DNA from: Natrinema sp. CBA1119
GTDB lineage: Archaea; Halobacteriota; Halobacteria; Halobacteriales; Natrialbaceae
Length of the DNA: 64,000 nt
Reading direction: 5' to 3'
Assembly: GCF_002572525.1 (NCBI RefSeq)
Contig: NZ_PDBS01000001.1
Coordinates: forward strand, 124,001 to 188,000
The translations under genes and the position numbers were made by a program. The first letter of the stretch is position 1. The number at the start of each line of letters is the position of its first letter. Positions 30,909-36,773 of the stretch are shown here, one piece after another. The notes beneath the pieces are model-generated. The model was not told the origin of the DNA. It made no database searches and saw only the letters and a list, made by a program, of their open reading frames with translations.

Positions 30909-31072
30909 CGTCCGCCGGTACGGTCGGCCGTCGATTGAGTGTTTGGATAGGGGTTGTGCGTCCGCGAATCGTCGGGCCCAGAGTCGACATTTGGTCGCTG
31001 AGTACCGATATACCGGGCGAAGCTGGCTGCTCGACGGGAAAGCCCATACCGCTGCCGACCGAACGGGATGAT

Positions 31073-31516
31073 ATGACACTCGATGTCGAGATTCCCGATC
31101 CGCCGACGCTCAGTGGACCGCAGGACCCAGGCGACTACGACGCCGTCGACGAACCCGAGGAGTGGACGGGCGACGACACTCGCCGCGAAGCCCTGTCCGA
31201 CTTTCTGGAAGCGGGTGCCTGGGAGGACGCCTTCGACGAATGGGCTGCAGACACCTACATGGCTGAGGACGAGTTTCGGACCGTCCTCGAGTTCGGACTG
31301 ATCGAGGAGTTCGACTTCTACTGGAATCAGTCCGCAGAAGACGTCGGCTATCGCGCACCGACGGTTCCGGACGATGCAGCCCACGACGGACTCGACGAAG
31401 ACGACGTCGAGGATATCGAAGAGGAGTTAGATTCGCTCGGTCGGACGGTAAGCGAAGTATTGGAAAATGACTACATCCTTCGCAACGGATCGGAGTTCGG
31501 CTACACCTGGGAGTGA
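31073..31516 (+). CDS. Acidic protein of unknown function, tandem paralogue 1
   Basis: 147 residues starting MTLDVEIPDPPTL. It is very acidic and soluble. It shares with the next gene a start MTL-x-VE-x-P-PP-L, a middle R-E-L-FLE-GAW-AFDEW, and a later FDFFW/FDFYW and VGYHAP/VGYRAP region. The shared body suggests a compact helical domain. No function is recognised. An ATG at the aligned start position is used in both. Confidence 0.75.
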   Translation: MTLDVEIPDPPTLSGPQDPGDYDAVDEPEEWTGDDTRREALSDFLEAGAWEDAFDEWAADTYMAEDEFRTVLEFGLIEEFDFYWNQSAEDVGYRAPTVPDDAAHDGLDEDDVEDIEEELDSLGRTVSEVLENDYILRNGSEFGYTWE

Positions 31517-31651
31517 CGAGCCGAGCAGGGCGACAGCCGTCACTCGAGCGCGTCGTCTCACCATCCACGGAGACGGCATCGCGGGACGACCGGCCGTGAC
31601 TGGCAATGCGACGTGGGAATTCTTATCCGGCGACCCGACCAACGACCGCGT

Positions 31652-32122
31652 ATGACACTCGAGGTCGAACCCCCCGAGCCGCCGGAACTGGAGTTCGTCG
31701 ACCCGAACGAGTACGAGGACGCGACCGTCAGCGCCGACGGGGACGAGGAGATCGACTACCGCCGCGAGGAGCTACAGGGGTTTCTCGAGGAGGGAGCCTG
31801 GACGGAAGCGTTCGACGAGTGGCGCGCGGACACCGATCTCGAGGAGCGGGAGTACGGAATCGCTCGCGATCTCGACCTCTTCGCGGGGTTTGATTTTTTC
31901 TGGGACGACTTCGCCGATCGTGTCGGCTATCACGCGCCCGGCATTCCGGAGGATTGGCAGGCCCGGGAGTATCATCCCGACCTCGATACCTGGGGGACGG
32001 TGTCGTCGATCAACGCCGAACTCACCGAGTTCGGCCAGATCGTTTCGGTCATCCTCAAGGAGGAGTACGTCGACTGGGAGGCCGAGTACGAACCGCCCGA
32101 GGATCTGCCCGACTTCGATTGA
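31652..32122 (+). CDS. Acidic protein of unknown function, tandem paralogue 2
   Basis: 156 residues starting MTLEVEPPEPPELEF. It matches the upstream neighbour along its length: RREELQGFLEEGAWTEAFDE, GFDFFWDDFADRVGYHAPGI, LTEFGQIVSVILKEEYVDW. The two genes are direct, 135 bases apart, and clearly arose by duplication. Divergence is strong, so the duplication is old or selection has differed. Confidence 0.75.
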   Translation: MTLEVEPPEPPELEFVDPNEYEDATVSADGDEEIDYRREELQGFLEEGAWTEAFDEWRADTDLEEREYGIARDLDLFAGFDFFWDDFADRVGYHAPGIPEDWQAREYHPDLDTWGTVSSINAELTEFGQIVSVILKEEYVDWEAEYEPPEDLPDFD

Positions 32123-33909: not shown

Positions 33910-36498
33910 TCAGCGGGCGAGTCCCACCGCGACGCCGATCAGGACGAGTCCGACGAGGGCGACCCCCGCTCCGATCGCGCCGTCGCCGGCGAGGGCGGTA
34001 GCGCTACCGGCGACGACGCCCGCTCCCCCGCCACCGGCGATAATCGATGACGGGAACGCCGGCGTCGCGGTCGCCTCGCTGCGAACGGCCTCGAGTTCCG
34101 TCCGGAGCGCCTCGATCTCGTCGTCTCGACCGTCGATGGATTCGATCTCTCCGATCCGTGTCCCCATCGTTTCGATCCGTTCCTCGAGACTCGCGTGTCG
34201 CTCGGCGATCGCGGCCATCCGCTCGTTCAGGGAGTCGATCTCGGCGTCGAGCGTCCGCACTTCCTCGAGCGCTTGCACCGCCGATTCGTCCGGACTGGAT
34301 TCGACGGTCCGGACGAGTTCGTCGTGGTCCGTCCGGAGCGACTCGAGGCGGTCGACGATGACCGACACGTCGTCCTCGAGTCCGGTAACGGCAGTTTCGT
34401 TCGCGCCGGCGTCGACATCGTCGATCCGCTCCGCGATCGAGTCGAGGTCGTCGTCGAGAGTCGCGATCTCTCCCTCGAGTGTCGCCCGAACGTCGTCAAT
34501 CCGTCCGTCGACGGTTTCGAGGTCCGCCGCGAGGCCGTCGACCCGCTCCGTCCCGGCCGCGCGCGTCTCGAGATCGTTCAGTTGGGCCGTGGCCGTCGAA
34601 ATCGTCTCGTCGAGATCGCGAACCGTCGTTTCGAGGTTCTCGATCTCCTCGTCGATCGTCGCCTCGACCGCGTCGAAGCGCGCGTCCGTTCGATCGGATC
34701 GCCGCTCGAGGCGGCCCGCAATGTCGTCGAGACGCGTCGATAGTTCCTCGAGACGGCCGGCGACCCCGTCGATGCGCGTCCCGGTTCGCTCGATGCCCGC
34801 CCCGAGGTCGTCAACGTCGTCGCGCAGTTGCGAGGCGATTCCCTCGACGGTCTCGAGGGCCGCCTCGGTCGCGGCAGTCGCCTCGAAGTCTTCCAGGTCC
34901 GTCCGCACCTCGTCGAGCGCCTCGTCGATCGTCGTCGTCCGGTCGGTGACGGCTTCGAGGTCGCCCGCCAGATCGGTGAGCCGGTCGTCGAGATCGGCCC
35001 GTTCGTCTGCAGCGGTCGACTCGACATCCGCGAGCGCATCGTCGGAGTCGTCGATGTCGTCCTCGATCGCTGTGAGCGCGTCCGAGAGCGCCTCGAGTTC
35101 GTCGTCAAGGCGATCGATTTCGGCGTCGAGACTGGCGACGGCCGAATCGCTCGCGTGACTCTCGCTCTCGGCTGTGAGGTCGCTCAGATCGTCGGCGAAC
35201 GACTCGAGGCGCTCGTCGAGTTCGTCCACCTCGTCTGCGGCGGCCGTCCGTTCCTCGACGGACTCGAGGTCCTCGGATAGCGCCTCGAGACGCTCGCGGA
35301 CGGACCGGACCTCGTCGTCGCGGTTTGCGAGCCGGTCGAACAGCTGATCGATGGCATCGTCCTCGCGATCGGAGGCCACGTCGCCGGCTTCGACCTCGTC
35401 GAACGCGAGTTCGGTCCGTTGGGCTCTCTCGGCTCCCGCGGTCACGTCGGCGGCGTTCGGGACGCCGCCAGTCCCGTCGCTGTTTGTGGCGGACTCGGAC
35501 CAGGTGACTGCATCGTCGGCCTCGACATCGTCTCGAGCGGCGGCGAGTGCACCCCTGGCGGCGCTCTCGGCGGGGCCGTCCGCGAGTCGAACGCCCCGAA
35601 CGGAGAACGGCAGTGCCGCCGCGTCGAACCGACCGCCGACGAGAAACTCGACGCCATCGATCGCCCCGTCGCCGCCGATCGCGATGGGAACCGACAGTCC
35701 TTGCTTGACATCGGTCTCGTCGGCTTCCGCTTGGACCGCACCGATCAGTTCGGCGACGAGCGCGTCGTAAGCCCCCGCAAGCGCGTTTTCGATCTCGCCC
35801 GCCGCCGCGTCGGGATCGAGGATGAACTCCTCGAGCACGCCGGCGACCTGTGCCGGCGCGTGCCCGGTCTCCTCGGCCGCGCGCTCGACGATCCACTCGC
35901 GCCCTTTCGCGATCGTCACGGCCATCGCCGGAACGCCGTAGTACGCCAACGTTGCGCTCGTCGTCTGGGACTCGAGACAGATTCCGAGCCCGGTGTAGTT
36001 GTCTGCCGCGAGCTGATCGTAGACGACGGCGAAGCCCTTGCTGATCGGGGTCGCGTCGACTCCGCGATCTGCCAGCGCTGACTCGACGGCCTCGCGGTGT
36101 GCGTCGGTCGGTACCGACGCGTCGGCGAGCGAACCTGGCGTCGTGTAACAGAGTCGCCCGTCCGTCGCGTCCCCCAGCACGTCGTCGAGGAGCGCGTCCA
36201 ACGCGGTCGGCGCGTCCACCGCAGTCTCCGCTGCGAGGACGCCGGCCGCGAACAGCGACTCCGGTTCGGCGTTCGCGGCCGCGACATCGGCGTCGGCGAC
36301 CGCTCGAGCGGCGGCGCCGACCGCGTGCGTCGTTCCGTCCACCCGGACGGTGCTGCCGGCCCTCGAAGGTCCGGCCGCCTCGAGATCTTCCTCGTCGACC
36401 GGTACCACGACCGGCGGGATCGAGTCGATCGTCGGGCCGTCGCCGGCGTCGGTTGCGGCCCGGATTGCCCCCGGTCCGATGTCGAGACCGTAATACAT
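33910..36498 (-). CDS. Actin/Hsp70-like protein with long coiled coil and C-terminal membrane anchor
   Basis: 862 residues from ATG 36498. Residues 1-320 have the order of an actin-fold ATPase: phosphate-1 loop YYGLDIGPGAIRAA, a CYTTPGS strand like the MreB 'VPSG' segment, AVVYDQLAA, a phosphate-2-like GICLESQTTSATLAYYG, and an adenosine-like AIGGDGAIDGVEFLVGG. The phosphate-2 loop lacks the usual Asp and glycines. Residues 395-800 are continuous acidic coiled coil. Residues 815-862 are Gly/Ala-rich with one or two hydrophobic helices. It probably makes membrane-tethered rods or filaments. A longer upstream frame has no conserved character. Confidence 0.8.
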   Translation of the reverse strand: MYYGLDIGPGAIRAATDAGDGPTIDSIPPVVVPVDEEDLEAAGPSRAGSTVRVDGTTHAVGAAARAVADADVAAANAEPESLFAAGVLAAETAVDAPTALDALLDDVLGDATDGRLCYTTPGSLADASVPTDAHREAVESALADRGVDATPISKGFAVVYDQLAADNYTGLGICLESQTTSATLAYYGVPAMAVTIAKGREWIVERAAEETGHAPAQVAGVLEEFILDPDAAAGEIENALAGAYDALVAELIGAVQAEADETDVKQGLSVPIAIGGDGAIDGVEFLVGGRFDAAALPFSVRGVRLADGPAESAARGALAAARDDVEADDAVTWSESATNSDGTGGVPNAADVTAGAERAQRTELAFDEVEAGDVASDREDDAIDQLFDRLANRDDEVRSVRERLEALSEDLESVEERTAAADEVDELDERLESFADDLSDLTAESESHASDSAVASLDAEIDRLDDELEALSDALTAIEDDIDDSDDALADVESTAADERADLDDRLTDLAGDLEAVTDRTTTIDEALDEVRTDLEDFEATAATEAALETVEGIASQLRDDVDDLGAGIERTGTRIDGVAGRLEELSTRLDDIAGRLERRSDRTDARFDAVEATIDEEIENLETTVRDLDETISTATAQLNDLETRAAGTERVDGLAADLETVDGRIDDVRATLEGEIATLDDDLDSIAERIDDVDAGANETAVTGLEDDVSVIVDRLESLRTDHDELVRTVESSPDESAVQALEEVRTLDAEIDSLNERMAAIAERHASLEERIETMGTRIGEIESIDGRDDEIEALRTELEAVRSEATATPAFPSSIIAGGGGAGVVAGSATALAGDGAIGAGVALVGLVLIGVAVGLAR

Positions 36499-36773
36499 GC
36501 CCCCGGTAACTCGAACCACCCTCTTGGAAGTTACCCCCGAAGTACCAGATATGAAAATCGGCTCGGAGCGAGAGATTCTTCCGAGAATTATCTCACATCT
36601 GAATACTTGTGAGCTTCCTGCACACGGGTCGTTTGTCGGGGGGCCTCGAAATCGGGTATCCCGTCCGTTACCGGGGAACAGACAGCGTACGACACATCGT
36701 CCCTGGTGAGACCGTAGCACACGACGAGAGAAATCCTCACGTTTAACTATCAGGATGATGGTGGATCACGTGT

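Follow-up and report, generated by a model that had tools for sequence, protein, structure and literature searches.

Archaeal actins have been reported as drivers of cell shape and of multicellular development. The closest described relative of the protein considered here is volactin (VolA, HVO_2015, Pfam PF25216) from Haloferax volcanii, which is given as the only identified actin homolog of that species (PMC7617734). Its filaments are described as crossing the cytoplasm and contacting the membrane by their tips only, and the volactin authors suppose the existence of volactin-binding factors, so far unknown (PMC10869688). Salactin (PF25229), found in Halobacterium salinarum, has a reported role in DNA partitioning. 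For the attachment of volactin to the membrane, the long paralog described below offers a concrete candidate within one large haloarchaeal family. In the openly available parts of the volactin and salactin literature (PMC10869688, PMC7617734, PMC12186497, PMC12050087, PMC10746226), no description of a coiled-coil or membrane-anchored volactin relative was found; this result, which covers openly available papers, is provisional.

The DNA analyzed, referred to as the window, is a stretch of 64,000 nucleotides from Natrinema sp. CBA1119. It contains, on the minus strand, a complete coding sequence for a long, putatively membrane-anchored volactin paralog (33910–36498; 862 amino acids plus stop, ATG at 36498). 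An earlier, sequence-only reading had placed the gene at these coordinates and had named the motifs YYGLDIGPG and CYTTPGS, a phosphate-2-like loop and the motif AIGGDGAIDG; coordinates and strand proved right, with a single 862-codon frame, and every one of these motifs was recovered, the loop as TGLGICLESQTTS. A longer, GTG-started frame of 936 amino acids is not supported, because the orthologs agree in starting at the equivalent methionine (MxxGLDIG) and because a conserved upstream element adjoins that ATG. The element, strongly conserved in an alignment of 15 orthologs (36521–36558, minus strand), reads ATTTTCA(C/T)ATCTGGTACT...AACTTCCAA(G/T)AGGG, or in short ATTTTCACATCTGGTACT ... AACTTCCAATAGGG. 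Lying directly before the start codon, it is probably the promoter region and possibly a regulator site as well.

The head of the protein (residues 1–321; 35536–36498, minus strand) is a complete volactin domain according to both Pfam and hhalign. It matches PF25216 with an E-value of 1.4e-124 and 416 bits (cut-off 35) over profile positions 1–321 of 321, and long heads align with canonical volactin over the full length at 100% hhalign probability, while reversed controls reach 0.1–0.4%. Since the same genome also encodes an ordinary 343-residue volactin (C1:3985678; PF25216 match at 1e-138), the window protein is a second, diverged paralog of it. By sequence it belongs to PF25216, yet it is a paralog rather than an ortholog of VolA. 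The canonical VolA motifs GLDVGTMN, SFGAGMT and TGGTSSP are not reproduced: TMN, SFGAGM and TGGT are lost, and only the GLD-G and TGLG framework is retained in the alignment. Matches to actins at large are weak, both for canonical volactin against Actin PF00022 (E 9e-4) and for the window head against the actin-like N-terminal domain ALP_N (E 0.013). Searches of PDB sequences returned no relative, and the AlphaFold2 model of the head, built from a two-sequence alignment only, has a pLDDT of 36.5. From membership of PF25216, we infer an actin fold for the head. The sole recognizable relationship of the head is with volactin, and Pfam alone would already label it as such. The initial description of an actin/Hsp70-like head is supported as to the actin family but was too generic, as the domain is a full volactin domain with a paralog in the same genome.

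The nucleotide motifs of the head differ in part from those of canonical volactin. The phosphate-1 loop GLDIG (residues 4–8; 36475–36489, minus strand) contains Asp6, which is kept in all aligned long and canonical heads. The phosphate-2 region TGLGICLESQTTS (residues 169–181; 35956–35994, minus strand) is without the usual Asp, and the alignment shows the same for canonical volactin (SFGAGMT) and salactin (NMGSTN). The sequence-only reading had taken the GICLESQ loop at this site as a sign of slow or absent ATP hydrolysis. As it stands, this argument cannot be sustained, since the Asp is equally missing from ordinary volactin and from salactin, whose filaments are reported to be dynamic in cells (PMC10869688 and PMC10746226, respectively). 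The adenosine motif is degenerate in the window protein (IAIGGDGAIDG, residues 272–282; 35653–35685, minus strand), where canonical volactin has VVVTGGTSSPSG. The TGG motif is altered in 23 of 23 aligned long heads, mostly together with the deletion of one residue; VVVTGGTSS is intact in 16 of 16 aligned canonical volactins (one has TGGTAS), and all seven aligned salactins keep TGG, as TGGM. In the alignment, the long forms of family f7, L110 and the Natrinema zhouii protein L001 have also lost the Gly of the phosphate-1 loop. Because TGG is lost in every aligned long head and the phosphate-1 Gly in some, the nucleotide pocket of the long heads is likely degenerate.

The head is followed by an acidic, weakly conserved linker (residues 322–381; 35356–35535, minus strand) and by a coil-start motif, DDAIDQLFDRLANRD (residues 380–394; 35317–35361, minus strand), that is nearly invariant in the family of the window genome, Natrialbaceae (f1). 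The coiled coil spans residues 382–812 (34063–35355, minus strand) and is indicated by heptad score, ortholog comparison and AlphaFold2. The mean heptad score over residues 386–805 is 0.56, compared with 0.28 ± 0.02 for 200 shuffles, and this segment has a single proline in its 420 residues. For residues 382–862, AlphaFold2 gives a nearly continuous helix over 383–808, mostly at pLDDT 60–89 (helices 383–448, 451–569, 576–697, 701–734 and 738–808), with the tail unresolved. The coil of 400 residues claimed from the letters alone is therefore real, but not uninterrupted, as about four short breaks occur near residues 449, 570–575, 698 and 735. Kinship of the coil with SMC, Rad50 or ASRP was considered and rejected, because coil-only matches lie far below the cut-offs (ASRP 71 bits, cut-off 300) and the similarity is driven by composition, so that any acidic coil would match.

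The hydrophobic tail (residues 813–862; 33913–34062, minus strand) is, from hydropathy and orthologs, a probable two-pass membrane hairpin. It consists of a Gly/Ala-rich segment, an acidic turn and a second hydrophobic segment with a terminal Arg; a Kyte–Doolittle 19-residue window value of up to 2.56 confirms the Gly/Ala-rich hydrophobic C-terminus noticed earlier. The tail has no match in Pfam and no second copy elsewhere in the genome. All 36 complete long proteins examined keep both head and tail, the latter being a hydrophobic stretch of about 40–53 residues with a maximum 19-window value above 2.2 in each case. The Natrialbaceae pattern is AGGGGAGVVAG..ALAGD...G.GA...GLVLxGVAVxLAR; the tails of families f7 and f10 use other letters in the same arrangement, two hydrophobic segments with a polar or acidic turn between them. 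The length of the coil, measurable in the 28 proteins where the start motif allowed, ranges from 141 to 852 residues. A variable coil between conserved ends is what would be expected of an anchor plus spacer.

The survey of distribution covered 292 genomes of the class, including 75 Natrialbaceae. A volactin-family match above the cut-off was obtained in 175 of the 292. Using a profile built from long heads only, the long form was found in 54 of the 75 Natrialbaceae genomes, being distinguished by an E-value below 1e-90 (canonical about 1e-74) and an open frame of 649–1361 amino acids (canonical about 350). More diverged long forms were found in families f7 (G033, G141, G243) and f10 (G136, G261), so that the long form spans, on the sequences compared, at least three haloarchaeal families. 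That head and coil are joined in no relative, which the sequence-only reading had named as a refuting outcome, is contradicted by many relatives with the same order. The protein is no lone oddity, since the same tail recurs across these families. Canonical volactin is also present in all 54 Natrialbaceae carriers and in all five f7 and f10 carriers; because it occurs in every sampled Natrialbaceae genome, co-occurrence within this family is uninformative. The sampled genomes of families f4 and f3 yielded no long form. Extra weak PF25216 matches were checked in 12 volactin-bearing genomes from outside Natrialbaceae and turned out to be salactin-type actins, not long forms. A search of the genome contig collection returned a single relative, the Natrinema zhouii (Natrialbaceae) protein, and none was found in the viral contigs searched. 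Matches on plasmids (H1–H4) are partial, covering about 195 residues of volactin. On Haloarcula plasmids (about 410 and 388 kb) and on a Natrinema thermotolerans plasmid (987 kb), a volactin-like stretch is annotated as hypothetical. Genome G106 (genus g30; L094, L076, L084) has two near-identical canonical volactins and a broken third on another contig.

The long gene is absent from 21 of the 75 sampled Natrialbaceae genomes. In seven of the genomes without it, the flanking genes remain, PEP carboxykinase at one edge and W25/W24 at the other, and neither head nor coil nor tail sequence was detected between them. Because these seven syntenic sites are clean, the gene is accessory and dispensable. 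In the maximum-likelihood tree, the canonical volactins (support 99/99) and the long forms of Natrialbaceae (100/99), f7 (95/81) and f10 (100/100) form separate groups. In the unrooted tree, one branch with 99/99 support parts all canonical volactins from all long forms, and because of this branch the data are compatible with a single ancient duplication-plus-fusion followed by many losses, though the fusions may also have arisen independently. Rooting with salactin would make the long forms paraphyletic, but the salactin branch of 3.6 changes per site makes this root untrustworthy.

The preferred reading, to which a probability of about 0.4 is given, is that the long protein is a membrane-tethered volactin paralog working with ordinary volactin filaments. 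Such a protein could tie actin filaments to the cell membrane. In this mechanism, the tail would sit in the membrane as an anchor while the head faces the cytoplasm, and two or more chains would pair in parallel through the coil. The heads would thus be held up to about 64 nm off the membrane (431 residues × 0.1485 nm). Poor in nucleotide turnover, they may bind, cap or nucleate volactin filaments, whose ends would thereby be kept at the membrane or close to it. As a spacer, the coil would be free to evolve in length. A stalked, anchored and nucleotide-degenerate paralog would fit a docking, capping or nucleating factor for filaments that meet the membrane by their tips. In its favor count the co-occurrence with canonical volactin in all carriers, the conserved tail behind a coil of variable length, the altered TGG, and the faster evolution of the long heads, whose mean identity is 0.58 within one family, compared with 0.85 for canonical volactin across the class. 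A more specific version is doubtful: here the protein would be an Arp-like, membrane-anchored pseudo-actin without nucleotide cycling, which nucleates or caps volactin filaments from its long stalk as a dedicated, built-in anchor. The main difficulty for the mechanism is that H. volcanii is reported to have no second identified actin homolog. Because this species has one known actin, and yet its filaments end on the membrane, the long volactin cannot be a universal filament anchor. With one identified actin homolog there and no long form in the sampled f4 and f3 genomes, tip anchoring in H. volcanii must use something else. The absence of the gene from 21 of the 75 Natrialbaceae genomes also counts against the mechanism, and the 71 canonical-invariant residues that are changed in every Natrialbaceae long head may include filament contacts.

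In the alternative that survives best, although unlikely, the head would be a pseudo-actin module for binding, with a role unrelated to volactin filaments, for example EzrA- or FtsA-like at the division site, as a scaffold for envelope proteins, or as a chromosome tether. The strong divergence of the head is consistent with such a role, and so is the gene neighborhood. PEP carboxykinase and a methyltransferase flank the locus, and nearby are CutA and genes that we take, from reading the sequence, to be those of ribosomal L11-L1-L10-L12. No conserved functional partner was found among the neighbors, and the gene stands alone. The resemblance of the coil to SMC and ASRP coils would also agree, though any acidic coil would show it. 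However, no DNA-, FtsZ- or envelope-binding domain was detected among the best 25 of 89 Pfam families, and the head is recognizably related only to volactin, which is always present. Of the initial proposal, the joining of an actin-family head to a coil and a membrane anchor is supported, but nothing specific points to a chromosome tether. Two small acidic protein genes with the pattern MTLxVE.P.PP... (31613–32122 and about 31040–31516) are paralogs of about 43% identity and are syntenic both beside long volactin and beside empty sites; the gene at 31613–32122 has no match in Pfam. A gene with the pattern MxHLERIxVHPIKSLD, presumably MOSC-like, adjoins long volactin in L100, L104, L105, L108 and L110 and was not seen beside the window copy; it has no obvious functional link to long volactin.

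A distinctly unlikely alternative has the long protein assembling into membrane-attached filaments of its own that would not depend on ordinary volactin, with the heads polymerizing in an MreB-like manner and the coil serving as a flexible tether. A full-length, volactin-type head in which Asp6 and most framework glycines are kept would suit this, as would the purifying selection on the head. In close pairs, dN/dS by a counting method is 0.13–0.50 for the head and 0.27–0.43 for the coil, compared with about 0.07 for canonical volactin; the long protein is therefore constrained but evolves faster than its canonical counterpart. Given these values, and since orthologs keep the entire domain order, this order is beyond chance. 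The independent filaments are opposed by the loss of TGG in all aligned long heads and of the phosphate-1 Gly in some, and by the pattern of substitutions. Canonical volactin has 210 invariant positions; at 44 of them the residue is retained in at least 17 of 18 Natrialbaceae long heads, and at 71 it differs in every one of these heads. Highly improbable is a strut that senses length or curvature, its anchored coil gauging the spacing of the membrane or making the cell edge stiffer and its head serving as no more than a weak cap: the widely varying coil with both ends kept and the reported involvement of volactin in rod–disk changes of H. volcanii (PMC10869688) agree with it, but wide differences in coil length between close relatives argue against a precise ruler.

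If the Arp-like version of the preferred reading is true, archaea would have an actin cytoskeleton with its own dedicated membrane anchor. The architecture would also be unusual for the actin family: to our knowledge, no other single chain combines a head of actin type with a long coiled coil and a membrane anchor. EzrA-type regulators are membrane-anchored cytoplasmic coiled coils that act on a cytoskeletal polymer. They are without an actin-family head, and their likeness to the window coil is one of composition only, below the cut-off. MreB and FtsA resemble the long protein by function only, as actin-family proteins at the membrane with no family-level sequence match, and they bind the membrane through an amphipathic helix, where the long protein has a coil of 430 residues and a probable two-pass hairpin. 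The likeness to eukaryotic Arp2/3 and actin-related proteins is likewise functional only, that of a diverged actin paralog possibly regulating a filament; these have no coil or anchor, and the window protein is not a member of their family by sequence. Salactin is a haloarchaeal actin homolog too, and the canonical volactin, f7 and f10 heads match it distantly (hhalign 55–62%). It is nevertheless a separate family without coil or anchor: the window head has no profile match to PF25229, and the Natrialbaceae long heads have no significant one (hhalign 0.5%). Volactin remains the nearest system. The head aligns with it end to end, and both are without the phosphate-2 Asp. Canonical volactin, of about 343 amino acids and about 85% identical across the class, has neither coil nor anchor and keeps TGG, whereas the long form is about 33% identical to it, lacks TGG and carries coil and tail. 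As far as the available literature extends, the long volactins are provisionally a conserved, so far undescribed gene family, and they represent a new architecture within an actin family already known, not a novel type of protein.
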